NCBI GenBank assembly: GCA_019096065.1
Contig: JAGUCH010000006.1
Location: 5,538,001-5,602,000 of the forward strand
Source: Paracyclopina nana
Lineage: Eukaryota > Arthropoda > Copepoda > Cyclopoida > Cyclopettidae
Reading direction: 5' to 3'
DNA: 64,000 nt
A model generated the notes under the pieces. The model made no database searches, had not been told where the DNA came from, and saw only the letters and a list, made by a program, of their open reading frames with translations. The translations under genes were made by a program, and so were the position numbers. Positions 6,151 to 50,467 of the stretch are shown in pieces (position 1 is the first letter of the stretch; every line of letters starts with the position of its first letter).

Positions 6151-7253
6151 CAGTCTGTCCCGTAGATTTCTGTACACTTTGAAATCAAAAGTTTGTGTTA
6201 CAAATTCGGGAATTATTAGACACAATGGATATCATTGGAAAGCTTGAATCTTTTGCCATCTTTTTTTGCTTCAATGGATAAAAGAAATTAAAAGTAAAAA
6301 AATGAGAAAACTTAATTTTCCTGAGGTACCCTTAATTTTTCTCCCAAAAAAGCAAATTAGCCAAAATCGGCTATTATCGACCAAATTTTCACTTAAGCTA
6401 ATCCTGGCTATTTTTTTGACATTTTTTCATGAAAAAAAATCTTGCAGCACTGCGCTCATCAGAAAGGTGGATGATTGGAAAGGATATTTTTCAGTAAAAA
6501 AAGACAATAAGGCCACTGCCTACTAAAAAAGTTTCAAAATTAGTGTTTTAAACATCACATCTTTGGGATTTTTTGTTTATGAAGATCAAATGTTTAACCA
6601 ATTTCATGAGAAATTGAATAAATAATTTTTTTGTGAAAGTGACTTTTCATAAAAAAAAAATCAGTGAAAATGGGAGTGAATTTGGAGTAACTATCAATTT
6701 TGTGGTCTAAATCAAAATTTGAATTAATACTTTTTAAAAATCTCAAAACTAAAAAAGATGGCTTAAGTTTCAAGCTTTCCAACAGTATCCATTAGCTTGT
6801 TCTCTTAAAACTCAGTAAGGCAGGCAGTAAGCAAAGCAAGGCACTTTAGAAGCTCATAACTCAGTAAGTACTGAGCCGATTGGAACCAAATTTGGAGGTA
6901 TTCATTAGAGCATATTGAAGAATCCACATGCAAAATTTCATCCGGATCGGAGAACTCTAAGGAGGTGGCTGATTTTTCTCCTTTGCTTAACTGATTTGCC
7001 TTACTTTCAGTAAGGCAGCCTTAGCGTCCTCCGATCTAGATGAAAATTGGCATGAATATTCTTCAATATGTTTTCATAAATTACTCCAATTTTGGTTCCA
7101 ATCGGACGATTAGATACTGAGATATGAGCGCGCAAAGTGCCTTGCTTACCTTATAGAAATGTTTATGAGAACAAGCTATTGTGTCGAGTATTTCCAGAAG
7201 TTTTAACAAAAACTTTTGATTTCAAAGTGTACAGAAATCTACAGGACAGACTG
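6151..7253 (+). mobile_element. Tc1/mariner-like non-autonomous element (nested host)
   Basis: Inverted ends of about 45 bp start CAGTCTGTCCCGTAGATTT; the right arm is the complement with about one mismatch. TA flanks the left end (6149-6150); the right TA is split by a later insertion (T7651-A7652). A CAGT start with a TA target is typical of Tc1/mariner. Further internal arms (6220-6248 versus 6768-6795 and beyond) make it a long foldback. With the nested 382 bp insert and its 2-bp duplication removed it is about 719 bp and has no transposase frame. Confidence 0.8.
6795..7176 (+). repeat. foldback element, GCTTGTTCTCAT family, copy 1 (nested)
   Basis: 382 bp, starting GCTTGTTCTC and ending GAGAACAAGC, flanked by TA on both sides (6793-6794 and 7177-7178). 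It contains the family signature TCAGTAAGGCAGGC and a second internal inverted pair around AGTAAGGC. It sits in the right arm of the mariner-like element. Confidence 0.9.
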
Positions 7254-12944: not shown

Positions 12945-15233
12945 CCCCACAAAACAAAAAATCAGTAGTAAATCAGTAGTAAACCCCGTTGCAAATTAAA
13001 TACATATAAATTATAAAAATTTTGTGATAAATTACAAATATGGTGTGCGTAGATGTGTACAATGTCAAATATTTACGTCAAATATTTTTATTTCCAAAGT
13101 TTTGAATTTTAAAAATTTGACATTTTGTCCTTTTTTGGTTATGTTTTTTGTTCCAAAATACTTAAATTTTTTTTATAACTTTTTGCCATTTTATGACTAA
13201 TCAAGCATCCCAGTCTTCATTTTATGTGTTCATTATTTGATATTTGTCAAATTATGAATCACATTTTATTTAGTTTTTTATCAGTAGTAAACAGATAAAA
13301 TACTAGCTTGTTCTCATAAAACTCAGTAAGGCAGGCGGTAAGCAAAGCAAGGCACTTTGGAAGCTCATAACTCAGAAAGTACTGAGCCGATTGGAACCAA
13401 ATTTGGAGGCATTCATAAGAGCATATTGAAGAATGTTCATGCAAAATTTCATCCGGATCGGAGAACTCTATGGAGGTGGCTGATTTTTCTCCTTTGCTTA
13501 ACTGATTTGCCTCACTTTCAGTAAGGCGGCCTTAGCGTCCTTCAATCCGGATGAAAATTGGCATGAAGATTCTTCAATACGTCCTTATGAATTCCTCCAA
13601 ATTTGGTTCCAATCGGACGAGTAGATGCTGAGATATAAGCGCGCAAAGTGCCTTGCTTACCTTATAGAAATGTTTATGAGAACAAGCTAGTGATTTCAAC
13701 TTCCTTTTTTTTAATCAGTATGTCAAAATATTTTTATTAATAAAATTGCATCAATAAAATCAGTATTTTTTGTATTTCAAATACTTAAAAAACTGTATAC
13801 TATATCTGTTTAAAAAATTAGTTTGTTTTTGATTAATTGTATACTATATCAGGTTGTTATGTAGATTTCTCTGATTTACTAGGTCAGTATTTCATGTACA
13901 TTCTGGCACATAAGTCCCTTCAAATTCTGGCAGTTGTTAATCAGCTCTAATTACTATTCCTACTCACTACTTATTGTCTTTCATTGACTTTTTCAAATGC
14001 ATCTTTAAGGTATACTATATCAGGTTTTCATCTAGATTCATCTGATTTACTAGGTCAGTATTTAATGTATATTGTTGTCCTGGGGTCATTGCAAAAAATC
14101 AATGTTCTTAATCACTTCTAAATACAGTTACTACTCTGCACTAATTGCCATCAACACATTATTGGCACTACTGTCAATATGTGTATTAAATCAGGTGTAA
14201 ATGTAGATTCTACTGATTTAATTAGTCACTACTAAAATATAACTTAGTAAAATGTTCAGAGATGGCTCTGCTTGCAATTCAATAATTTTGCTAAATTGTT
14301 CTTATCAATAACTTTTAATGGCTTTAAGATTTCAAAAATCATCATTAATAGATGTTGTTTAGAACAACATGAAAACTGAGTTAGAAAGTGTCATGCTTCT
14401 TATTTTCAAAGAAAAACTGAGATCTTGAGTTTTATTCAAATATATATCTTATGGAGCAAGATTGCTGACTTGTAGCAATTCAGTCATTTTATTTTATTAC
14501 TGAAAACATAGTTCTTCTTGTCTCATGAGCTAGAATTAGTGATGGAGTGAGTCAGAAAATTTATGGCTCATTTATTCTCCACCTATATGCAAGACCTGAG
14601 CCTGATGCACTCCAAGGCAAAAGGGATAAAAGTATAATTGAAGTGTATATTAAACACAATAACAACTGAATTAATTGAGATTAATAAATACATAAAAATA
14701 TAAATGGTATGGTATATTAGTAACATTAAATTCAGATAAAATACACATAAAAAGCATTTACAGATTGTATTTGTAATCAGTTTCAACTACATTAACTACT
14801 GATTATATTTGTAAAAAAACAATATTAAATGTATATTTAATCAGTTTAATTGGCAATAAATACGTAATAAATAGACAACTCCGAAAAGAAAAATTTGAAA
14901 AAAAAATTCAAAAACAAATAAGTATTTAATGAGGTTGAAATCGATTTAAACCAGATAAAAACCGGATTTATTCAAAAGTAACTAATAATTATACAGACAA
15001 CGGTAAGTAATATTAAAAATTTTAAAGTGAATTTGATATCAGCACATCGCAATAGCAACGATAGAAATAAAAACTAGTCGATACAACCATTTTTGAAAAA
15101 TCAGGTTTTGCGAAAAATTTTATGAAACGGTTGCGTTACGCTTTTATCAGTATTCTTGTTACAAGACACCTGATTTAATATACGTAGTAAATCAAGATTA
15201 AATCAGGTTCATTTTGAGTTTTGTTTTGTGGGG
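12945..15233 (+). mobile_element. unclassified transposon, CCCCACAAAAC ends, copy 1
   Basis: Begins CCCCACAAAACAAAA and ends TTTTGTTTTGTGGGG, with the 2-bp duplication AA on both sides (12943-12944, 15234-15235). It is 2,289 bp with a 382 bp foldback inserted at 13306-13687; without that and its 2-bp duplication it is 1,905 bp, against 1,904 bp for the inverse copy at 45888-47791. The left end has tandem ATCAGTAGTAA motifs, the right end has GTAGTAAATCA. The interior holds three degenerate tandem units of about 170 bp (near 13848, 14021 and 14183) with CTGATTTACTAGGTCAGTAT. No transposase frame; a conserved frame of about 60 codons occurs in both copies (14583-14786 minus here). Two-bp duplication plus subterminal repeats recalls CMC/EnSpm-type elements, but this is only a suggestion. 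Confidence 0.9.
13306..13687 (+). repeat. foldback element, GCTTGTTCTCAT family, copy 2 (nested)
   Basis: 382 bp inside the unclassified transposon, flanked by TA (13304-13305 and 13688-13689). The other copy of the transposon lacks it, which confirms it is a later insertion. Confidence 0.92.
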
Positions 15234-17827: not shown

Positions 17828-18400
17828 GACCAAGACTGCAATTTGAGGCAATTCAAGACTTCATATTGAGGCTGCTCAAGACTACAAATTGAGGCCGTTC
17901 AAGACTCCTGCACCCGGCAGCGTCTCCCGCACCCGGTAGCGTCTCACGCACCCGGCAGCGTCTCCCGCACCCGGCAGCGTCTCACGCACCCGGCAGCGTC
18001 TCCCGCACCCGGCAGCGTCTTCTGCACCAGGCATCAACTCCCGCACTGCGGATCGACTCCCATGCACACATTGTGACTACTCAAGACTACGAATTGTGTG
18101 GGAAAAAAATCGCCCGGGTGATCTGCCGGACCCCCCGGCAGCGTCTCCCGCACCTGGCAGCGTCTCCCGCACCCGGCAGGGTTTCCCTCACCCGGCAGCG
18201 TCTCCCGCTCCCGGCAGCGTCTCCCGCACCCGGCAGGGTTTCCCTCACCCGGCAGCGTCTCCCGCACCCAGCAGCATCTCCCGCACCCGGCAGTGTCTCC
18301 CGCACCCAGCAGCATCTCCCGCACCCGGCAGTGTCTCCCGCACCCGGCAGCGTCTCCCGCACATTGTGGCTGCTCAAGACTACAAATTGCGTGGGAAAAA
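17828..18400. repeat. GC-rich 20-bp minisatellite with GCTCAAGACTACAAATTG flanks
   Basis: Two arrays (about 17906-18030 and 18134-18361) of a 20-bp unit, consensus CGCACCCGGCAGCGTCTCC plus one base, with variants such as CAGGGTTTCC and CAGCATCTCC. Each array is bordered by copies of CTCAAGACTACRAATTG (17876, 18080, 18373). The long frames here on both strands (up to 137 codons) are products of the repeat, not genes. Confidence 0.92.
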
Positions 18401-19749: not shown

Positions 19750-21235
19750 TGTTCATTAATTATCAAAAGTGGTGCAATTTTGATGGGTCAGCCTGTATTA
19801 CTCCCACTCCCCACGCATGCATGCTTAGCAGGAGAAAAGTTCCTCCTACGACGCGAGCTGTCACCGTCGTCACATTTGTGGTCTTGTTAAAGCTCCATGA
19901 CTTCTTACTGGTCATTGCAAAGACATTTTATGGCGGTCGTAACTTGAGGAGTCCATTGACACGACTGACCTCAAGGAACGCGGAAATATTCGGCTGGAAG
20001 AGTTGAAAAGTCCAATAAAATGCTCACAGGAGCCAAAACACTCAGACCATTCAGTCTCGATGGAATTTCAAACAAAAACAGCTGAAGCTTCCTTTTCCAG
20101 CCCAAAAATTTGCATCACTTTTAAAAATAAAACCGAGCCTCTATTTTCAGGGCAGCAAACAGGGTTTTCCTATTTAGATAATTTTAGTATAATGCACCAG
20201 AGTGAATATGATCATCACATTAGAAATTGAATAGAGCTTTTGTGATGCATATAATTGCGTAGTTTAGGGTGCATAGAATTGATGTTAAATTAGATTGGGA
20301 CACTTTTGTGCCACCATTACAATTTATGGGTCACGTGTGGCTACATTCACATTTTGCAGCTGCACCTCAATGATCAAACCTTGCGCATAACCAAAGCAGT
20401 GACCTTTGATTCAGTGTTACATTTACCAGAGCTGAATGCATTAACTGCCCATCCTTTTATTGGCCTTCTCCACTTTTTGTTATATGGCTCAACTTTATTT
20501 AGCCTGGAGCAGCAAAAAAAACCCCCAGGAAAAAAGGGCATTTTTCACCCCTCGCTGTAGCGTTTAATAAAGTCATTACCTTTGATGTTTGGTGTAATGA
20601 CATGCAAAGTGTTATGTTTACTGCAAGCCTGAAATTGGCCATAATTTCGCATATAATGTGCCACCATGAAAATAATCAAATGGAGACACATCATGTGTTG
20701 GTCTAAATTGTAATGAGCCACATTGAGGCCATAAAACTCAATTGAGGCCATAAGAAGAAGAATGCTGCTGCATTTCCAGCATTATACTGCATAGCAGAAG
20801 AAAAGACCTTCAGTAGACAATTCGTGGCAATGACCGGGTTATGGCAGCACATTTGTAATGTGGAAGCTAGGAAAAACTTTGTGGTGTTCATTGCCCATAT
20901 AGGAGCTGCTGCTGCTGCTGCTATATGTGAGTGGTGGTCTAAAATACTGGCTGCATTTGCAGCTGCAGTTAGCTGCACAGTGGGAAATCTGGCCCCATAA
21001 AGCTTTCACATTTGGCTCAGTGTCCCAGACAAAACATCTACATTGGCTTGAAACTAAAGGGGTAATCTTTTTAATTTCAACAATATTTTAAATGTAGATG
21101 AAAGTATATAGACTCTTAATTCAAATTCTTGCCTTATAATTATTGCTGCTGCTGCTGCAAAAGTACTTTATAGCCACTGTGCTCAAATTATTTAACTCCT
21201 CCCTCATATAGCATAAATCTCTGAGGGAGGCTCAT
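19750..21235. other. intergenic, no gene seen
   Basis: No gene supported. Short (CTG)n runs occur near 20908-20922 and 21145-21160. Confidence 0.4.
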
Positions 21236-21239
21236 AATA

Positions 21240-21621
21240 GCTTGTTCTCATAAACTTTTCTATAAGGTAAGCAAGGCACTTTGTGCGCTCATATCTCAGC
21301 ATCTACTCGTCCGATTGGAACCAAAATTGGAGTAATTCACAAGAACATATTGAAGAATATTCATGCCAATTTTCATCCAGATCGGAGGACGCTAAGGCCG
21401 CCTTACTGAAAGTAAGGCAAATCAGTTAAGCAAGGGAGAAAAATCAGCCACCTCCTTAGAGTTCTCCGATCCGGATGAAATTTTGCATGGACATTCTTCG
21501 GTATGCTCTTACCAATCTCTCCAAATTTGGTTCCAATCGGCTCAATACTTACTGAGCTATGAGCTTCCAAAGTACCTTGCTTTGCTTACCGCCTGCCTTA
21601 CTGAGTTTTATGAGAACAAGC
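21240..21621 (-). repeat. foldback element, GCTTGTTCTCAT family, copy 3
   Basis: 382 bp with GCTTGTTCTC / GAGAACAAGC ends and TA on both sides (21238-21239 and 21622-21623). The order of internal motifs is reversed relative to the copies at 6795 and 13306, so it sits in the opposite orientation. Confidence 0.9.
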
Positions 21622-21623
21622 TA

Positions 21624-24600
21624 ATGTCTAATGTCACATTTACCACCACCAAGTGCACCCTAGCATATTACAGAGCAGGAAATTGCAACTGCAGTATCTT
21701 CTTCTGGGACTTGCACTCTGGGGGACAATTTGGGGCTTGAAAAAAGTATTTCTCAATTCTTGATGAAAAATTCCACCTCAAAATGGGCAGTAATGAAGTT
21801 TCTCTCAAAGGACTTTTGCTAAGCAGCTTATCCTGCACCCAGTTGACCCATTGTGATTTGACAAGAAAGAAATTCCTGCTAAAATAACTTGTGTGTGAGA
21901 AAACATGGTTTTTAAGGGGCCAAATTCCTATTGTGCACCACTGAGTACTGCAGTAGTATAAGCTCAGAAGTTAGTGAACTGAGAAATGATGCTGTTCCTG
22001 TGTTATATGATGATTATGGGATTTTTCCTCCATGCTGAGATTGTTTATGGTTTTGTTTACATGTGCTGCTGATGCAGCAGCCACGTGGCACTAATAACAA
22101 TAACTCACTTAAGAAAGAACTAATTATAACTACTATGCTGTATGGTTGGGTCAAGCTGAGTAAATTATTTTCATTCTTCTGCAGTGAAAAGATTAATTAT
22201 TGATTGAGATGTCATCATATGGCAGATAAAAAAAATTCCTCAAAATCATGAAAGAAGCCCAGCTGTGCTGAATCCATTTTGTACATATCCTCAACATCCA
22301 TTTTTTATCCCATTGAGACAAAATACCATGAAACATATAAGACTTTTATTATGCATGTATAATGGCTGCAGTTTTATTATGATTTCATTTTTTCCCACAC
22401 ACATGTTTGTCTTCTTCATTTTTTATGGCCTTTTTGATAAACATCACTACATTTTTATGGTTGTTTTCATGCTAGCTGATCCCAGTAACCTATGCTACAT
22501 ATGTTAAGCTTGAGAGCTTTTGGCTAGGTTCAATTTTGTGCCAAGGGTCAAAAGAATGCTTTGCCTCCATTGCATTTTGAATGCACTCAGAAATCAATCA
22601 AAAATTGACCAACTTAAAGAAATCATACTATTTTAAAATTAAGTACCTCATATTTTTGTGATGACTTAAAGATAATTTTCTTGTTCCTGGCCATTGGCCT
22701 TTAAAGGGAAAAAGGCCAGTTTTTTCAGGGCAAGATTTCTCAGTGTGTATGAAAGAGAATCGTTTTGAGGGCTTTGTTATGATTGCATTAGTTCCTCATC
22801 AGTCATCAAAGTTGCATTTGCTGCAGATGAACAAGCTGTTTAAAAAGGATGATTGATCCTTGCAGCATCACAAATATTCCCGCCAAAATGTCATTCTCTA
22901 TTAGCAAACGCCCTTCAATCATCGTTGATTCTGCAGCTGCTTTACATAGTATCATAAAAAAAATCAGCAGATTTTTTCAAAGCTCTCCTTTCTTTGCCTA
23001 AACAGAATGCTTTGAATTGAGGCTTATTTGCTTTTAAGGTGAATTCAGCCTACAAAAAAGCCAGCTTGCGGAAAAAACACTGTAAAATAGCCCAGGAATG
23101 ATTTATGTTATGTCTGTTGCAGGCCTTAAAAACCAAGTGGCAAAATAAATGACATCTGGATTTGTTTACTACGTCCCAAAATGGCCATAAAAGCAGAAAA
23201 ACCTCAAAACAGTTATTAAAACTTGCCAAATCAAATATATCACAATAGATGTGTGGTGCAAAATTAGTAATAGAAAATTCCACATACTGAAAATTCCTTC
23301 ATTATCACAGAGAGCCAAATATGTCACTCTTTCATCCTCTTTTATCATTGCTACTGCAACAAAGTATGTGGGACACAAAACACGCCCATGCTCAATCGCC
23401 AGTTCATTGCACCCAGAAATAGTGTCAAAAGATCCCTCTAAATATAGTATTAGTAAGCTATAGCTATAGTGAAAGCAGTTAAGGGAGGTGAAGGGCAGAA
23501 AACGATTTTTCTTCACTCCCCCTTGCATCATAGCATAAGCACAGTGTGGAGTTGCATTTCTGGGCTTGAAAAAAGGCTTTTCAACAGGTTTTTATCTTTC
23601 AAAGGCTCTTTTGCAACAGTGTGTCAAAATCCCCCAAGGGATATGCTAGTGTGTTGTGCCAAAAGCCTCGAATTTATCCTACAGTGCATTCAGCGAGCTT
23701 TCCTTTGGCCGGCCTCGGTTGGCCTTCATTTGCTGTTCAAGGCTTTCTCTAGTCACAGACTTTCTCTCTCGGTCACTGGGGAACTAGGGCTAGCTTTCAC
23801 TCCAAAAGGAGCAAATAGAAAGCCGCCAACCCCCGGAGAGCAGAACGTGCGTTTTTTTCTCTTCTTGTACACTGCATGCATTTTTTCCTGATCTACTCGA
23901 GTCATACAAGGCCAGGCCATGGCCGGGTTGAAGGCCACACCACCGCCGAAAAAAGGACCTTGAGCTGCGAGGAAAAAAGTGTGGCCTTGCTTGCTTTGCT
24001 TGAAAAAAATCAAGGCCAAGAAGAAACTCAATACTAGTACTACATGCATGAGAAGAGGCCTTTTAATTCTTGTGAAGTAAAAGTAATCTTTATTTTAGGT
24101 CAATTCTTCAATTTATTTGGTAGGAGTGTTTTACAGTTATGGATTTACCGGGAGATGTATTGTATATAGCCTTTGCTTTTTGGAGGAGATATAAAACACA
24201 AATTGTTCTGATGATCTTTGCTTTTTTCACCGGGGTGGGATTTTTTCCGCGTCGTATCTAAATGATTTTTTTTTGTATTTGCGTATGGGGAGGGCGAAGA
24301 AAATGGCGAAAGGCGCGCACAATTGGCAGTCATTTTGAGCGTTGGATTCAGACCTAAAGAAAAACAACTCAAAAAATCAAAAAGAGAGAATAAAATAAAC
24401 AACAATAAGCAAAAAGCGTGGCTTTGTAATTTTGCATAGCAGTAAAAATAATAATGAGGGAGGCGGAGCAGCAGCTGTCGCGCGCACACGCACATTCAGC
24501 TGTTGCGCGTGCGCGTAGCCTACATTTCGCGCGCTCTCTCTAATGTGTCTGACTAGTTGCAGTCTTGCGAGATAATGTAAAAAACAGATTTAAAACTATG

Positions 24601-36404: not shown

Positions 36405-38275
36405 CCCAAATTGCCTAAGTACTTAAAAAAAACCGAGTAAAGAAGCCATACTTTAGCATGGATTGGTTGTAATATCGTCAATAATTGACCAGGCAAACTG
36501 GGCCAAAAAGAATCTCAATTCGATTTGAATTGCACATGTGCGCGCCAAAAGTCAGCTGTCAAATGTCAGCTCGCCGGTCACGCATGAAATTTCAAGACAA
36601 AAAGCCGGCTGAACCTTTTTCTAAATGAGGAAAAAAGCAATTTTCCAAGATATTGGAGGAAGAAGCTATGCATTTCCTGCTACTGTAAATGCTTGCAAAA
36701 CCACCGCGCTGAAAATTGCCAAGTAAAGTTTGCACATTCTAGCTGTGATACGTGGAACTCGTCGGTTTTCAGACATGCTCGCAGACTTCTAAAGATTTTC
36801 GCTGAACCACGCCTGGCGAGTCAAAAGAGTTTGAGGAATTGTTGTGCGCATGCGCAAAAGTGGAATATTGCAAAGTCTCACACAAACCTCAGCCATATTT
36901 GCACACGCCTTTCACATTTCAATACACGACTGCAGACACCTGTTTTGCGAAAATCCCCAAGGGGAAGCCAAAAAAAGCCCCTTCTCTTCAGATTGCCATT
37001 CTGATTTAAAATGTGGAATTTTTTTTTTGAGAGGGGGATTTTTTTGCGGCAATTTTGCTCCCACAGTGAACAAAGAGCTTTGTACTTGTAGTGTATATAA
37101 AGAAAGTTATCAGGGGTGAGTGCCCTGTAACTATACATAAAAGCAGCTTTTACGTTTCCACAGTGGGTTTATTTGCCGATTTCACGCGCACGGAAAAAAG
37201 TCGCGAAATCAACGTAGCTCCTCTTTCTTATAGTCCGTAAGCTAAAAATGTTGCATCTCAGCACCCGGGAGAGCAAGTAAGAGCAGCCAATTCTGGTGGA
37301 TAATCAATGTATGCCATTAGCTTGACTTCCCTGACTTGGTCACTCAATTGGATTCGTTTGGAATAAAAAGTTATGGAAGATTCAATTTTTGCTCAATTTG
37401 TGCAAAATTGCTGTTCTACTGAATTCGCCAAAATCAACTTTTTCCCAAAAATTATTTTTTCTGCACCAAATTTAAATCTTTAACTGTCATTTACATTAGT
37501 TTGAGCTCTCTTGATAGTCTAGAAATTGTTCAAATTATAAGATGAAAATTGGTACCAAAATCGGAAATCTGCGATTTGACGCAATTTCTCGTGCGCGTAA
37601 AATCGGCTTTTTGATCCACCGTGGTTTCGTATTTTCAACATGAAAATCCTTTGAAAAGCAGATCTTTTTTCCCGCCTGCAATACATACACTGCGGCAAGG
37701 TGGTTTTTGCGAAGAAGGATTGTTTCGCAAAAGGCTGATGCGAATTTCCCAGCCATTTTTCTCCTTTGTAAACCTTGCACACTGGGTAAAAATGCTGGCC
37801 TTAATGGAAAATCCCTGCTGCATATTTCAATCATTTTGCGGCTGAGGCAGAAACTTTTTTCTCGTAGAAGATGGGAAATCTTAGCTTAAGGCCCAAGTTT
37901 TTGAGGGAAAAAAGGGATTTAAGGCCAAAGTTGATTGAAGAATTATGTATGTTCTAGTCAGCCAAGTTTTATGTGTGTATTGAAAAATGGATTTTGAAGA
38001 TAGTTCTATTGAAACAGCAGCTGTTGCGCAAATTTTTGCCACTTGAATTCAATTCAAAACTATTATTTATTACAGTAAAAAAACATCTGCCCAAACTTTA
38101 CAGTTGGTTGCTACTGCAAAATAGGGCAAAAAGGGACAGCTCAACAACAATGGAACGAGTTTTGCACAAGCCAGACAGTTTTGCAATTCACCTCTTAAGC
38201 TCGTTCTCAGACTTGAGAAAAAGCAAGCTAAGCAAGGTAAGCAACGTGCTTTCTAATATTCATAATCTTTAAACA
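36405..38275. other. gene-free stretch with dispersed-repeat fragments
   Basis: From about 37158 (CCACAGTGGG) it carries the dispersed repeat marked by TTTCACGCGCACGGAAAAAA and GTCGCGAAATC, also seen at 29545, 30602 and 55232. No gene supported in the remainder. Confidence 0.45.
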
Positions 38276-38280
38276 TAATA

Positions 38281-38652
38281 GCTTGTTCTCATAAAACTCA
38301 GTAAGGCAGGCGGTAAGCAAAGCAAGGCACTTTGGAAGCTCATAACTCAGTAAGTATTGAGCCGTTTGGAACCAAATTCATAAGAGCGTATTGAAGAATC
38401 TTCTTGCCAATTTTCATCCGGATCGGAGGTCTCTAAGGAGGTGGCTGATTTTTCTCCTTTGCTTAACTGATTTGCCTCACTTTCAGTAAGGCGGCCTTAG
38501 CGTCCTCCAATCCGGATGAAAATTGGCATGAAGATTCTTCAATACTGCCTTATGAATTCCTCCAAATTTGGCTCCAGTCGAACGAGTAGATGCTGAGATA
38601 TAAGCGCGCATAGTGCCTTGCTTACCTTATAGAAATGTTAATGAGAACAAGC
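38281..38652 (+). repeat. foldback element, GCTTGTTCTCAT family, copy 4
   Basis: 372 bp, the same ends and internal AGTAAGGCAGGC motif, TA on both sides (38279-38280, 38653-38654). It has a small internal deletion relative to the 382 bp copies. Confidence 0.9.
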
Positions 38653-38659
38653 TAATAAG

Positions 38660-41610
38660 TTTGATTTTTGCTTATTCTCCTGTAGAGCAAAAAGTAAGTT
38701 TACAGCCTTGCTTAGCTAAGCTTATTTAGGTCGAGTGCACACAAAATGTCGACCACGTGGACCAAGAGAGAAGAAGACAAACATGCGCACAGTGGGATTT
38801 CTCCTAGCTCAAAAGCCACCATTCGCCATATGTGATTCTGTTGTCCCTTGTACTATATTCTAATTTTTGCAATTTTTACGGCGGTTTTGTGCAGTTTCTC
38901 CCCATTTCTGCGACGAGCGGGCTGGGGACCCATATTTTGCGAAAAACCTCCATGGCGAATTGAAGGGTTGTTGCCCTTTCTCTTTACTCAAAAAGAGCAC
39001 CGTCACCCGCAACAGAAATTAAAAAATGCGGCTTTCTAAAATTGCGCGCGAGCAAAATTATAATTAGCTGCTTATTTGCTGCGCTGTAATAAATAGTAGT
39101 TAAGAAAACTATAGTTTGCCAACTTGGCAATTTGCAAGAAAAGCAGCTTCCCATTTCCTATTACAGAAACTTTTTGCAATTAGCAAACAATGCAGATTCT
39201 TCTGTGACTTTCGCAAATTCTACGCATATATATACAGCTCATCCCAACATTTCCGTATCATATGCAATAATAGATCGGATTCCATGTCAATCTGGCCTAG
39301 CTACGTAGGGCTCGAGCCCCGCGAAAAATTCCTGAGCGGCAGGGAAAAATTTCAGAACCGAGCTACTATTTTTCACCCGAGCGTAGCGAGGTTTCACCCG
39401 AGCGTAGCGAGGTACTGAATAATGTGCGAGCGAAAAACTGACCAGCCAAATTGAAAATGTATTTTCTAGGGAAAATGTGGGACGATTTTGTATTTTGGGT
39501 GCGTTATTGGCAGGATTTAGCGAAATCGAGCGGGTGACGTGTGCAATTTTTTGGTGTTGGAAGAAGATGAAGTGGCAGATGTCGATTTTCGCACATGTTC
39601 TGCACTATGCCATCCATATCACCCGGCGTTTTCGCGAAAAATGGGGCACGAGTCCGAAGCATCGTATGTATAAAGCTGGATTATCATGCAGAACATTTTC
39701 ATGCTCATCTCCCCTCCAATTTCATTTTTGGCAGCAGAAATTCATGACAGACCAATTATTTATATGCAAACAATTTGAATACTATATGGAGAGCAGCAGG
39801 AAATTCACGGGTCTCTAGCCTGCATAATTGCTATCGCCAATTTTAAAAGCCATATTTAAAGACGAGAAATTAAAAGATTGCATGACCTGCAAAAAAACCC
39901 CGCTTACCACCTGGAAGATGGGTGGGAGTCTCATCAATCCCTTTACCCTGTCAGGAAAATTAGAGTGACCTCAGTTGACCTAAATTCACACACAAAAAAA
40001 ATAATGGAGCCACCAAAATCTTTGAACTTACGTTGGCCACAAACCAGCTTGAGGCTCTTCTCTCCTTCCATTATAACAACAAAACGAAATTATGCTGATA
40101 TTTGCAAATATCGAGCATATTTGTAAAATCATTCTTCAGATTTTGGCCTCGGAATCGGTCTATTGGCACCAAAATAAAAATTCTCTGTTTCTTAGTATTT
40201 TTCTCTGATATTTTGCCAAAATATCAGCCATAAAACATATACATGTGAACAGGCCCTTCATGTCTCTCCCCCATTTTGTGAGACCCAGTGTGCTGGAAAT
40301 ATGCAAAAAAGTGAAACTGGCAACATCCTGCGTGGAAATTACTACAAGTCCAACGGCTCATTTGTCCATCATGTTAATTCAGTTGCCAATCAAGCCCTCA
40401 TTCAGCATTCCATTGCAGTAATGCAAAAAAACACGTTTTGCACAGTGGTCACAGTAATAAAGGGGGGTGCTTCCACTCCCCTCCCCCTTTTTTCAAAGAT
40501 GACCCAAATAATCTCTGAGCTTTTGGCGTCGTAACTCAGTTTCGCGAAAATGTATTGTCAGCTTTCGCGCAAAATACTTTTGATGGTAAGTGCACACTCA
40601 CTTTTCACTTGGGAATTTTTCCTTCTTAAAAAGTTGACTTACGAGATGATTTACGAGCGCGTAAAAACTGCTTTAAAATACGAGGTTTTTTTGTAGCAGC
40701 TCAAAATGGATGCTACTGTGTCCCACTGTGCGCACTAATACATGTAGTAGCTTTCTCCCTTTTTGAGCTTCGGGGGGTATTTGCAAAATTAATCTGCAAA
40801 GCCAAAACTGATAAAGAATGATTGGAGCAGAAATTACGACCCTTTTTATCCTGAGTTGTGTACAATACGCGAGAATTCTCGCACGCGATCGATATGACTC
40901 AATTTGGCAATGAAAGAATACAGAATCCCCTTTTTATTGCACCTCATAAAAAGTGGTCAAATCTAGTACAAAAATAATGTTGCAAAAAAAGGAGAAAAGT
41001 GGTGGCTTTAACTATTTTTTCGTCGGTTTTTCTCATATTTCCCACATTAATCTCACCACACCTCACACTTGGAAGTGTCAAAGCCCAAGTGGCATGTTTA
41101 TAGCTGCCAGTACGTGTCATGATTGCATTTGACCAGGAATTGACCCTGTCAGCCCTGGAGAGAGAAAAAACTGCCTGGAGCTGAGAGTTTTAGCAGCAGC
41201 TGCTGCAGTGACTCAGTTTGAAGAATTGACATTGAGGCTAAAGACAAAGCTAGCACTTTTAACGAAAAAATACCAAGGGATTTAGTTTCTCTGGTTTCTG
41301 AAGAATTAGGTGGAAATCAGCTCTGGAAAAGAGAAAATGGTGGCTTCTTCACTCTCCTATGTGAAAAATGGGGGCTTTTAAAGCATTATTATTTGGGGCA
41401 AAAGTAGCCTCTTGTTTATGGCCTGAAAATGCTTTTTTCAAGCTCACAACTATAGAGGAATTTGCTGTCATTCTGCACAGGTTAATCAGTGGTCAACTTT
41501 GAGCAGCAAAGATACTGTTGCTGCAAGTAGATTGCTATGGAATTCCAGGGGAAGCTAGAGCCAGGTCAAATCGTGGTGAGTAATGGTACTTTGATGAAAA
41601 TGAAGCGTGC
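38660..41610. other. intergenic, repeat fragments, no supportable gene
   Basis: Includes a direct duplication of TTTCACCCGAGCGTAGCGAG (39370-39412) and a 5'-truncated relative of the 54067-54288 element (about 40093-40258). No gene supported. Confidence 0.4.
40093..40258 (+). repeat. 5'-truncated foldback element, GGCCCTGTTCAC family
   Basis: Matches the interior and right end of the intact element at 54067-54288: TTTGTAAAATCATTCTTCAG, CTCGGAATCGGTCTATTGG and the terminus GTGAACAGGCCC. The left end is missing. Confidence 0.75.
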
Positions 41611-45292: not shown

Positions 45293-45302
45293 TAATCAAG
45301 AA

Positions 45303-48300
45303 TTAGTTTAGCTTGTTCCGGATCCAATGGCAAATTGCCTCAAACACTGAGATGAAACTTGCTCCAAGCAAGAGACCAAGGTAACTTCCAAAATCAGCCA
45401 TGACATTGCTCATGCCATAGATGTAGTACGACTCAATTGTGTCCACATGACCTGAAGCCTTGAAAAGCTTGACAATTGTCGGCTCTAAAAGGCAATGCAT
45501 GATATGGGTCAGATGGAAGAATATTGCGGATTACCTTTTTGTTTTGCAAGTTCGACCTTTAATGCATCAATATCTCGAGTCACACTTGATTCAGACATTG
45601 AATCAATCAAGTGCTTTTTGGGCTCATACACATTTAACGTGCAAGGGGCAACGCATCTGGTTTTAGCATAAATTGCAGTCTCTCCACTGTCAGCGATAGA
45701 TGAGACATGCTTAGTGAATGAGTCGTAATCTTCTTCAGTTTGACAAAGACTCAAATTTGAGTCTGGCTGATCCAACCAGGGAAACTTGCAACCAGTTAAT
45801 CCAGAGAGGTACTTTTCAATGCAATCACTCAGCTCTTTAGTTGTTGTATCATCGTTGCAAGGCTTGTGTCGTTTAGGGACATCCTTCCCCCACAAAACAA
45901 AATTCGAAATGAACCTGATTTAAGCCTGATTTACTACGTATATTAAATCGGGTTTCTTGTTACAAGAAACCTGATAAAAGCGTAACGCAACCGTTTCATA
46001 AAATTTTTCGCAAAACCTGATTTTTCAAAAATGGTTGTATCGACTAGTTTTTATTTCTATCGTTGCTATTGCGATGTGCTGATATCAAATTCACCTTAAA
46101 AATTTTTATATTACTTATCGTTGTCTGTATAATTATTATTTACTTTTGAATAAATCTGGTTTTTATCTGGTTTAAATCGATTTCAACCACATTAAATACT
46201 TATTTGTTTTTGAATTTTTTTTTTCAAATTTTTCTTTTCGGAGTTGTCTATTTATTACCTATTTATTGCCAATTATACTGATTAAATATACATTTAATAT
46301 TGTTTTTTACAAATATAATCAGTAGTTAATGTAGTTGAAACTGAATACAAATACAATCTGTAAATGCTTTTTATGTGTATTTTATCTGAATTTAATGTCA
46401 CTAATATACCATACCATTTATATTTTCATGTATTTCTTAATCCCAATTAATTCAGTTGTTATTGTGTTTAATATACACATCAATTATACTTTTGTCCCTC
46501 TTGCCTTGGAGTGCATCAGCCATCAGGCTCAGTTTGGAAATAGGTGGAAAATAAATGAGCCAGAAATTTTCTGACTCACTCCATCACTAATTCTAGCTCA
46601 TCAGACAAGAAGAACTATGTTTTCAGTAATAAAATAAAATGACTGAATTGCTACAAGTCAGCAATCTTGCTCCATAAGATATATATTTGAATAAAACTGA
46701 AGATCTCAGTTTTTCTTTGAAAATAAGAAGCATGACACTTTCTAACTCAGTTTTCATGTTGTTCTAAACAACATCTATTAATGATGATTTTTGAAATCTT
46801 AAAGCCATTAAAAGTTATTGATAAGAACAATTTAGCAAAATTATTGAATTGCAAGCAGAGCCATCTCTGAACATTTTACTAAGTTAGATTTTAGTAGTGA
46901 CTAATTAAATCAGTAGAATCTACATTTACACCTGATTTAATAAACATATTGACAGTAGCGCCAATAATGTGTAGATGGCAATTAGTGCAGAGTAGTAACT
47001 GTATTTAGAAGTGATTAAGAACATTGATTTTTTGCAATGACCCCAGGACAACAATATACATAAAATACTGACCTATTAAATCAGATAAATCTAGATGAAA
47101 ACCTGATATAGTATACCTTAAAGATGCATTTGAAAAAGTCAATGAAAGACAATAAGTAGTGAGTAGGAATAGTAAATAGAGCTGATTTACAACTGCCAGA
47201 AATTGAAGGGACTTATGTGCCAGAATGTACATGAAATACTGACCTAGTAAATCAGAGAAATCTAGATAACAACCTGATATAGTATACAATTAATCAAAAA
47301 CAAACTAATTTTTTAAACAGATATAGTATACAGTTTTTTAAGTATATGAAATACAAAAAATACTGATTTTATTGATGCAATTTTATAAATAAAAATATTT
47401 TGACATACTGATTAAAAAAAAGGACATTGAAATCAGTATTTTATCTGTTTACTACAGATAAAAAACTAAATAAAATGTGATTCATAATTTGACAAATATC
47501 AAATAATGAACACATAAAATGAAGACCGGGATGCTTGATTAGTCATAAAATGGCAAAAAGTTATAAAAAATTAAGTATTTTGGAACAAAAAACATAACCA
47601 AAAAAGTACAAAATGTCAAATTTTAAAAATTCATAACTTTGGAAATAAAAATATTTGACGTAAATTTTTGACATTGTACACATCTACGCACACCATATTT
47701 GTAATTTATCACAAAATTTTTATAATTTATATGTATTTAATTTGCAACGGGGTTTACTACTGATTTACTACTGATTTTTTGTTTTGTGGGGTCAATATCT
47801 TTTGCTCCATAGCAATCCCAATTGTTCTATACTCTGAGCAATTTTGAATTAGCTGTAAAATAATACTTAAATATTTGTGAACTATTTTGAGCTATTTATG
47901 TTATGTACGCATTGAGATCTGCCAATGAACAAATTCCTCCTTCCGTAAGTATTTGTCATGGATTTTACTAGCAATCCGGAATTTGCCGATCCAAGAACCA
48001 TCATTGTAGAATTACTCAAATCTACTAAAATCTGAGCCTATAAGAAATGACAATTATACTATTTCTGAAAGAAATGCCAATTACAATTGTTTTTTTTATA
48101 CAGATGAAAATACGCCTATTGGGTACTTGGTTGTTGGTGTGTAATCAATACATCCATATACAAGTCTACCAAGGTATGCTGTTAAAGAATGAGAAATCTT
48201 TGCATTGCCCAGTAAACTATTGATTTCATCTTGATTTAAACTTTGATTGCTAAAGATGTGATATTTGCTGCAAAAAATTCTTTATTAACATTATCATTAT

Positions 48301-48654
48301 TTCCTTTGTAATTTCTTACTGCTCTGACACATTGGAATGCAAAATGTATTTGACAAAATTATGTTGAACAAATGACTGATACATTTTAGTGATGTTTTTT
48401 TCCTTGTCACTTTTAATATTTGTACACAAAGTGACACTTGGAAAGTCAAAATAGTCCACATCATTTTGCTGCAGTGTAGTTCCAACTTTTGTAAGAAAAA
48501 ATGAAAAAATATTTACTTCGAAAAATGCTAGAAAATTTCTATCTTTACCTTCTTCTAGCTGGGTTTTTGTAATACATACCCAACAAATACTCAAAAAAAC
48601 GCTAACAGTAACCAGTCTAACACAAATTATGAAAACTTTCCATAAGTCAAACAT
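45303..48654 (-). pseudogene. DEG/ENaC (pickpocket-like) channel, copy A, split by a transposon
   Basis: Six coding exons: 48654-48549, 48485-48320, 48267-48102, 48037-47909, 47831-45535 (holding the transposon) and 45484-45303. Without the insert the frame is open for 379 residues. First membrane helix in exon 1 (FIICVRLVTVSVFLSICWVC), the post-TM1 motif FPSVTLC in exon 2, cysteine-rich ectodomain (LTGCKFPW, CVAPCTLNVY), and TM2 with the selectivity-filter motif GLLLGAS in exon 6. The family forms trimeric amiloride-sensitive cation channels; ligand unknown. The 1,904 bp transposon at 45888-47791 interrupts exon 5 after the codons for MEQKIL. It does not start GT or end AG, so it is unlikely to be removed as an intron. 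All else is intact, so the insertion is probably recent. Confidence 0.85.
45888..47791 (-). mobile_element. unclassified transposon, CCCCACAAAAC ends, copy 2, in a channel gene exon
   Basis: 1,904 bp, inverse orientation to the copy at 12945-15233 and lacking its nested insert. Ends CCCCACAAAAC / GTTTTGTGGGG. The 2-bp duplication TC is at 45886-45887 and 47792-47793. The paralogous exon at 49245-49635 shows the empty site: exon 5 without the insert and one TC is exactly 391 nt, equal to that of the paralogue. Internal tandem units with GATATAGTATAC and GACCTAGTAAATCAG are at about 46915-47290. No transposase. Confidence 0.93.
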
Positions 48655-49011
48655 GACTTTCCACTTATTGCACTATTATGGAAATATTTTGAAAAACTGG
48701 AGCAAATGACCCACAAGCCACACCAAAAGCAAATATTTAAAACTTACAAATGGACTTCAATGAAGAACATATTAAGCTTGCACATGGGGTGTTAAAAAGC
48801 TATCGTTACTGTTCAAGGAGCAAACATATTCAACTGAATTTCCATGAAATATAGAGCTTGATCAATTGTATTGACTTTTCAAAACTTAAACTCAGGTAAA
48901 TTTTGCACATGATTCAATGACACCTATAGGATAGAAATAATCCAAGATTTATCATACGATTTGAATACAGGCTATGCTCTAATACATCTAAATGACTTTT
49001 AAAATCTAGAA

Positions 49012-50467
49012 TTACTTCAGCTTGTTCTGGATCATTACACAAGTAGCTTCAAACACTGAAATGAAACTTGCACCAAGTATGAGTCCAAGGTAGCTTCCAA
49101 AGTCTGCAATGAGATTGCTTAAGCCATAAATGTAGTAAGACTGAATTGTATCCACTTGACTTTAAAGCTTGAACACCTTGATAACAGTTGGATCTGAATT
49201 GACGCATGTAGAAATAATGATAAAGGCTTTTTTGCCTAGTTTACCTTCATATTTGGCTATTTCAGCCTTCATTGCATCAACATTGTGAGTCACACTTAGA
49301 AGTGACATTGTGTCAATCAATTGCTTTTTGGGCTCATACACATTTAATGTGCAAGGGGCAACACATTTGGATTTAGCATAAATTGCAGTCTCTCCACTAT
49401 CCATAAACAAAGAGACATGCTTTATGAATGAGTCATAATCTTCTTCAGTTTGACAAAGACTCAAATTGGAGTCTGGCTGATCCAACCAGGGAAACTTGCA
49501 ACCTGTTAATCCAGAGAGGTACTTTCCAATGCAATCACTCACATCTTTTGGTGTGACTTCATCGTTGCAAGGTTTGTGACTTCTAGGGATATCCTTTTTT
49601 ATAGTTTGCTCCATCGATAGCACAACTGTTCTGTACTCTGAATTTGTTTGATGTGGCTGTACAAGGTTGTCATCAAAGTTAGGACATTATTCTTAATTCT
49701 GCACTGGAAAATGATATACATACATAAGGCGATCTGCCCGTGAGCATATTCCTCCTTCCAAAAGTGTTTATCATAGATTGGAGCAATAATCCTGAATTAG
49801 CCAACCCAAGAAAAAATATTGAAGAATCACTTGTGTCCAAAAGAATATTTGCCTTAAAAAATTGCAATTCCGGATGAAGATTATAGGTCATTTATGTAAT
49901 TTTCTTAACACATACCGAGGAAAATAGTCCGACTGGGCTTTTCCTTGTTGGCTTATAGTGAATACATCCATAGAAATAGCGTATAGTTGCAGTCAAAGAG
50001 TAAGAAATTTTTGAAAATTGCAATAAACTTGAGCCTTCTTCTTGACTAAATCTTTCATTGGTGAAAACGTGGAATGTGCTGTATAATCAAAATGATCATA
50101 ATTTGATGGTTTATATAATGTTCCTGATTGCTTAATTCTCAAATCCATAAGAATGCAAAATGTATTTGACAAAATTACGTTTGATAAATGACTCATAGAT
50201 TTGACTGATATTTTTTCCCATTTCTTTTTTTAAATCTGAGCATAAGGTGACACTTGGAAATTCGTAGTAGTCAACATCATTTTGCTCAGTGGTAGTTCCA
50301 ACTTTGAGGAGAAATCAAGAGAATTGCAGGCTGGTTCTTATTCCTGTTACATTTTAATTACCTTCTTCAAGCAGGCTTTTCTCAATGCAAATCAAGCAAA
50401 TGCTCACGAAAATAACAATTGCTAAAAGTCTGACTGAAAATATGAAGAATTTCCAACAACCAAACAT
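49012..50467 (-). pseudogene. DEG/ENaC (pickpocket-like) channel, copy B, two disabling changes
   Basis: Tandem paralogue of copy A with the same six exons: 50467-50362, 50301-50136, 50078-49916, 49852-49724, 49635-49245 and 49193-49012 (lengths 106, 166, 163, 129, 391, 182). TM1 (FIFSVRLLAIVIFVSICLIC), FPSVTLC, LTGCKFPW, CVAPCTLNVY and TM2 GLILGAS are all recognisable. Two lesions: the donor after exon 2 is TTAAG where copy A has GTAAG, giving an in-frame TAA at 50132-50134; and a TAA at 49162-49164 in exon 6 where copy A has TCA (Ser), which removes TM2. A product without TM2 could not form the channel pore. Copy A starts 357 bp downstream on the same strand. Confidence 0.87.

Follow-up and report, generated by a model that had tools for sequence, protein, structure and literature searches.

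The 64,000-nucleotide stretch of DNA analysed here (the window) contains a channel gene of the DEG/ENaC type, gene A, whose exon 5 is split by a 1,904-bp DNA transposon. The element is very probably a cut-and-paste, non-autonomous transposon of the CMC(T) clade (CACTA, Mirage, Chapaev and Transib) that inserted into the exon fairly recently; a non-autonomous member is the most likely form because no transposase was found inside the element and the same ends occur on 15- to 17-kb relatives that encode the enzyme. The insertion is an event of an ordinary kind; greater interest attaches to the family. At this locus the interruption of a gene by a transposon can be read to the base, and the family, with its near-identical copies, exact empty sites, defined ends and the pairing of these ends with one branch of a large transposase family, is a promising candidate for an active system.

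The element occupies positions 45888-47791 of the window, as identified from its ends, its target site duplication (TSD) and its copies elsewhere in the genome; no strand is assigned to it, to its TSD or to its internal repeats. The left terminal inverted repeat, CCCCACAAAACAAAA (45888-45902, plus strand), is complementary at 15 of 15 bases to the right one (47777-47791, minus strand), and the element is flanked by TC at 45886-45887 and again at 47792-47793. The initial annotation had proposed a transposon of this length, with base-exact borders and complementary ends, at this place; position and length hold, the complementary ends prove to be longer than 11 bases, and the borders agree with the ends, with the TSDs of the family and with the empty sites of the relative L058 described below. 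The GC content of the element is 26.9%, compared with 32-46% in the remaining 2-kb windows, and the longest open frame lying wholly within it encodes 94 amino acids. A comparison of one family transposase with the whole window gave no convincing match (best E 0.42), and scanning the window for Rfam families and tRNAs gave no match.

The element contains 12 occurrences of the motif CTGATTT, whereas 1,000 dinucleotide shuffles gave a mean of 0.56 and a maximum of 4. Two copies of a 64-nt direct repeat lie 171 bp apart and are 91% identical (47053-47287); a third, 66% identical, lies at 46882-46945, and several more are found inside the 17-kb relatives. An internal module (element positions 810-1004, window 46697-46891) is common to other loci and is inverted in the 1.04-kb relatives L056-L058.

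Gene A is on the minus strand and, by our own reading, extends from start to stop codon over 45303-48654 in six coding exons, the borders of exons 2 and 3 being approximate. All six exon pieces are open except for the element. Exons 5-6 match Pickpocket 26 (E 9e-4) and ASIC2 (E 0.0012) by sequence, and the match spans the extracellular C-terminal part and the last membrane segment; a Pfam search with the exon 5 pieces alone gave no match. The upstream part of exon 5 measures 59 nt (47794-47852, minus strand) and the downstream part 353 nt (45535-45887, minus strand), and when they are joined over the element with one TC kept, they form an open exon of 412 nt. An in-frame exon 5 of 391 nt had been described in both gene A and its paralogue B; the open frame and the equal length stand, and the length itself is revised to 412 nt in both genes. 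By our own reading, the figure of 391 nt would correspond to use of another in-frame acceptor located 21 nt further downstream, and the exon lengths of A and B are equal under either acceptor. As assembled, the frame of gene A enters the element, continues through 11 foreign codons (TPQNKKSVVNQ) and meets a stop. The insertion has probably broken the gene: its message would run into the element, gain these codons and stop, and the truncated product would lose the remaining part of exon 5 together with the last membrane segment.

Paralogue B adjoins gene A (~49012-50467), and window positions 45294-45886 are 80% identical to it. Its exon 5 (412 nt, 49245-49656, minus strand) contains the empty site at 49596-49597, where the target dinucleotide is TT in B and TC in A. 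The exact empty site claimed for B is thus exact in length and not in its letters. The initial annotation also tacitly assumed an intact paralogue B, which is doubtful because an in-frame TAA occurs in the last coding exon of B (49162-49164, minus strand; FKL*SQVDTIQ vs FKASGHVDTIE in A). This stop precedes the last membrane segment and would remove it. Comparison of A with B over 376 codons, B's stop excluded, gives dN 0.21 and dS 0.72-0.81, and the ratio of 0.26-0.30 suggests that both genes were under constraint during much of their history. With A hit by the element and B carrying a premature stop, the assembly seems to contain no fully intact copy, and the pair offers a test of gene loss by a transposon in one copy and a premature stop in the other. 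The dS between A and B is ~0.5 in exons 5-6 (45294-45887 vs 49003-49597) compared with 1.1-1.7 in exons 1-4, and exons 5-6 contain near-identical patches; gene conversion between the two genes in these exons is possible.

Searches for the family covered the 92-Mb genome, in 10 contigs, to which the window belongs. The 1,904-bp element has at least 50 matches there, at least nine of them full length including the query, at 96-100% identity; these counts are lower bounds, 40 of 127 candidates having been scored. Among the matches listed, the closest copy, L002, differs by 6 mismatches over 1,904 bases and has flanks different from those of the channel-gene copy, and L003 and L004 show no mismatches and one gap. 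A second copy lies in the window itself (12945-15233, minus strand, TSD AA/AA) and contains a nested inverted-repeat insertion at ~13304-13689. That insertion belongs to a repeat of ~390 bp that has long inverted arms and whose four copies share 88-93% identity (6782-7183, 13304-13689, 21233-21634 and 38271-38662). Another full-length copy, L006 (C3:10166357-10168259), is situated in an apparent short intron of a C2H2 zinc-finger gene (own reading).

The 15-base end occurs 95 times genome-wide, and the reversed-pattern control does not occur. Twenty end pairs were compared, namely every facing pair of exact ends spaced by no more than 18 kb (19 pairs) plus L015, which has one imperfect end; a further facing pair, C1:10006237-10028228, is spaced by 22 kb and lies beyond this limit. 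The termini are CCCC..GGGG in all 20 pairs, and a perfect 2-bp TSD is present in 18 (P ~4e-20 for a random dinucleotide match of 1/16), with TA in six cases, AA in four, TC in three, CA in two, and AG, TG and CT in one each. L002 has a 3-bp TSD, GTA, or TA plus an extra G, and the pair C1:9502584-9517043 has none. A 2-bp duplication had been read from the channel-gene site at the outset; because one insertion alone cannot prove it, the duplication rests on the family, which supplies the proof.

Borders and TSD are also supported independently of the channel paralogue by L058, a 1.04-kb relative located within a high-copy palindromic repeat. When L058 and one TA are removed, the joined flanks match at least 17 places at 142 of 142 bases (100%; 40 of 190 candidates scored), and three of these empty sites were read directly through the junction. 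The empty sites are base-exact; thus, for L058, the four C lie within the element and the TSD is 2 bp. The palindromic repeat (for example, C8:5749418-5749559) is present in at least 40 places, 99-100% identical over at least 140 of 142 bases.

The same ends bound relatives of 17.0, 17.35 and 15.2 kb that hold a transposase gene. The ends of the 17.0- and 17.35-kb relatives on contig C9 (TSDs TA and CT) are only 78-80% identical to those of the 1,904-bp copy, too distant for either to be taken as its own source element. The 17.0-kb relative encodes its protein in several pieces (L010:4666-6433), three of which carry, in order, the motifs DG.P, D.P.R, C..C, EPMH, H...H and SAERFE. We infer that the D of DG.P and that of D.P.R would be the catalytic ones. 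The middle piece has at least 160 matches to related transposases in its own genome (150 of 175 candidates scored, some loci appearing in two rows), and among the matches listed, 99 of 150 values give open frames of at least 600 amino acids. Several pairs of matches with identical scores lie on different contigs. From the ~150 rows, 14 single-frame members were fetched and a motif pattern was written after inspection of their alignment: its core, D..C(2)C..H(3-4)H..E, is present in 12 of the 14 (L050 and L051 being without it), the first D plus the core in 10 of the 14, and the core in none of 32,000 shuffled sequences.

Among the matches listed, the 14 transposase loci most similar to the query include seven with an exact, correctly facing 15-base end within 17 kb, and the next 60 include none, the chance of such an end being ~0.018 per locus. 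The independent support for this pairing of enzyme and end amounts to three cases, because the C9 loci were found via their ends and two further pairs of loci are near-duplicates, with identical scores and almost equal distances to the end. The pairing indicates that the ends belong with one branch of the transposase family. Opposite the transposase strand, the 15- to 17-kb relatives and similar loci (L009, L010, L032 and L033) contain additional open frames; in the C9 element these fall, by eye, into two related sets (L009:3462-5997 and L010:292-3412). No Pfam family was found in the opposite-strand frames scanned, and the question arises whether they might encode accessory transposon proteins.

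No significant transposase family was found by Pfam in the transposase pieces and 16 family members. One of the 16 members, L052, has a DUF1258 match covering its D.P.R...C..C stretch at E 0.099 (12.6 bits, the cut-off being 33.1), ranking below chance-looking matches such as Tricorn_C1 (E 0.002), and none of the 16 matches Transposase_21 (PF02992). Searches of the genome with the PF02992 and PF06869 profiles gave no match; the control genomes were equally empty, so these searches are uninformative either way. NCBIfam returned only chance-level names for the family, and a PDB search by sequence with a 706-aa member found nothing better than E 0.44.

According to the available text of PMC12730594, transposases of the clade are marked by C(2)C and H(3-4)H between the second D and the last E, its TSDs are 2-5 bp long, its termini are 5'-CA..TG-3' 'in most cases', and some CMC-like lineages are difficult to place. 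In the present family, C(2)C and H(3-4)H are found in 12 of the 14 single-frame relatives and the TSD is 2 bp in 18 of 20 pairs, 3 bp in one and absent in one; the termini do not follow CA..TG, being CCCC..GGGG with CAC/GTG three bases inside. Since CA..TG is not an absolute feature of the clade, the clade assignment is kept. By its motifs the family would thus belong to the CMC(T) clade, and its ends and TSD argue against its being CACTA proper or Chapaev.

CACTA elements end in CACTA, contain internal short repeats and have long coding together with short non-coding forms. The present family resembles CACTA/EnSpm in the C(2)C and H(3-4)H between the second D and the last E, in the short motif repeated inside the element, and in its long coding and short non-coding forms, but differs in its ends (CCCCAC..GTGGGG rather than CACTA or CACTG) and in its TSD (2 rather than 3 bp). 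CACTG ends are given for a fungal EnSpm-like member in the available text of PMC12810828, and a 3-bp TSD for CACTA in that of PMC4158355. CNEST and ESTA, EnSpm-like elements with a TA TSD and a CMC- or CMCT-type transposase (available parts of PMC12810828 and PMC12730594), share with the family the 2-bp TSD and the type of transposase; however, their TSD is TA whereas the bases vary here, and the ends of CNEST begin with CACGG as opposed to CCCCAC. Chapaev, which generally has a 3-4-bp TSD and terminal CAC..GTG in the portion of PMC4079192 available, is like the family in belonging to the CMC supergroup and in the CAC and GTG, which here lie three bases inside the ends, and unlike it in the length of its TSD and the terminal position of CAC..GTG. 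DUF1258 (PF06869) corresponds to Mirage, which groups with CACTA-type families (available text of PMC3985635); the weak DUF1258 match of one relative (E 0.099) is a likeness to Mirage, but this match is below significance and the profile search of the genome was empty, with an uninformative control.

More tentatively, and with somewhat more doubt than confidence, the family might represent an undescribed CMC-clade lineage with C-capped ends, a variable 2-bp TSD and 15- to 17-kb coding members that are still moving. This small, arthropod-type genome yields well over 100 related-transposase matches, most of them with long open frames. A description of the family was not found among the matches listed in the literature on CACTA/EnSpm in animals, CMC, DUF1258 and copepod genomes, as far as the available text of these sources extends, and the string CCCCACAAAAC retrieved no DNA-transposon paper among the matches listed, within the same kind of partial text.

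The main departure from a broken gene A would be removal of the element from RNA as an intron, so that the gene is expressed with a few residues gained or lost. We consider this improbable. Six of 112 GT/AG combinations near the ends do keep the frame without a stop, one leaving 60 extra nt (20 codons) and another keeping the length of the exon and not its letters, and the copy L006 sits in an apparent short intron of the zinc-finger gene noted above (own reading). However, the introns read in gene A (own reading) measure some tens of bases, such as the 50 nt that separate exons 5 and 6; by eye the candidate sites seem weak and have no pyrimidine tract; a yield of six in 112 seems unremarkable; and the original exon is recovered by none of these six. 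Much less credible still is a misassembly that placed a repeat within the exon: the element is repetitive and nearly identical to L002, but the TC duplication is perfect, the joined flanks form an open exon matching B, the window contains no N, and L002 has different flanks.

As to classification, a lineage of inverted-repeat elements outside the CACTA/Mirage/Chapaev/Transib clade that acquired a similar motif layout has a small probability, comparable to that of splicing. The lack of a Pfam transposase match and ends without CA..TG would suit such an origin, as would the CMC-like lineages that the available text of PMC12730594 calls difficult to place. Against it stand the motif order in 12 of 14 members, the weak DUF1258 match of L052 on D.P.R...C..C, and a 2-bp TSD that falls in the clade's range of 2-5 bp. 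An element of the Tc1/mariner or pogo type, targeting TA, is the least plausible reading of all, with practically no weight, even though the TSD is 2 bp and TA is its commonest single form (6 of 18). Tc1/mariner elements have a TSD of TA at every insertion; here 12 of the 18 two-base TSDs have another sequence, the channel-gene copy having TC, and the linked enzyme shows the C(2)C-H(3-4)H layout. The varied dinucleotides thus speak against Tc1/mariner.

For a non-autonomous CMC(T)-clade transposon, the mechanism would be as follows. The enzyme from the long elements would act in trans on short copies, binding their ends and perhaps also the repeated CTGATTT motifs; it would then excise the element and insert it into target DNA whose two strands are cut at positions staggered by 2 bases. 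Subterminal repeats of CACTA elements serve as transposase binding sites, and by analogy the CTGATTT repeats may be candidate binding sites.

TTAGG is the arthropod-type and TTAGGC the nematode-type telomere repeat; the genome gave no matches to TTAGGC and contains 5,073 and 4,205 overlapping 25-mers of TTAGG. A tandem array with the 19-bp unit CTCCCGCACCCGGCAGCGT, present in 23.5 copies, occupies positions 17905-18362 of the window.
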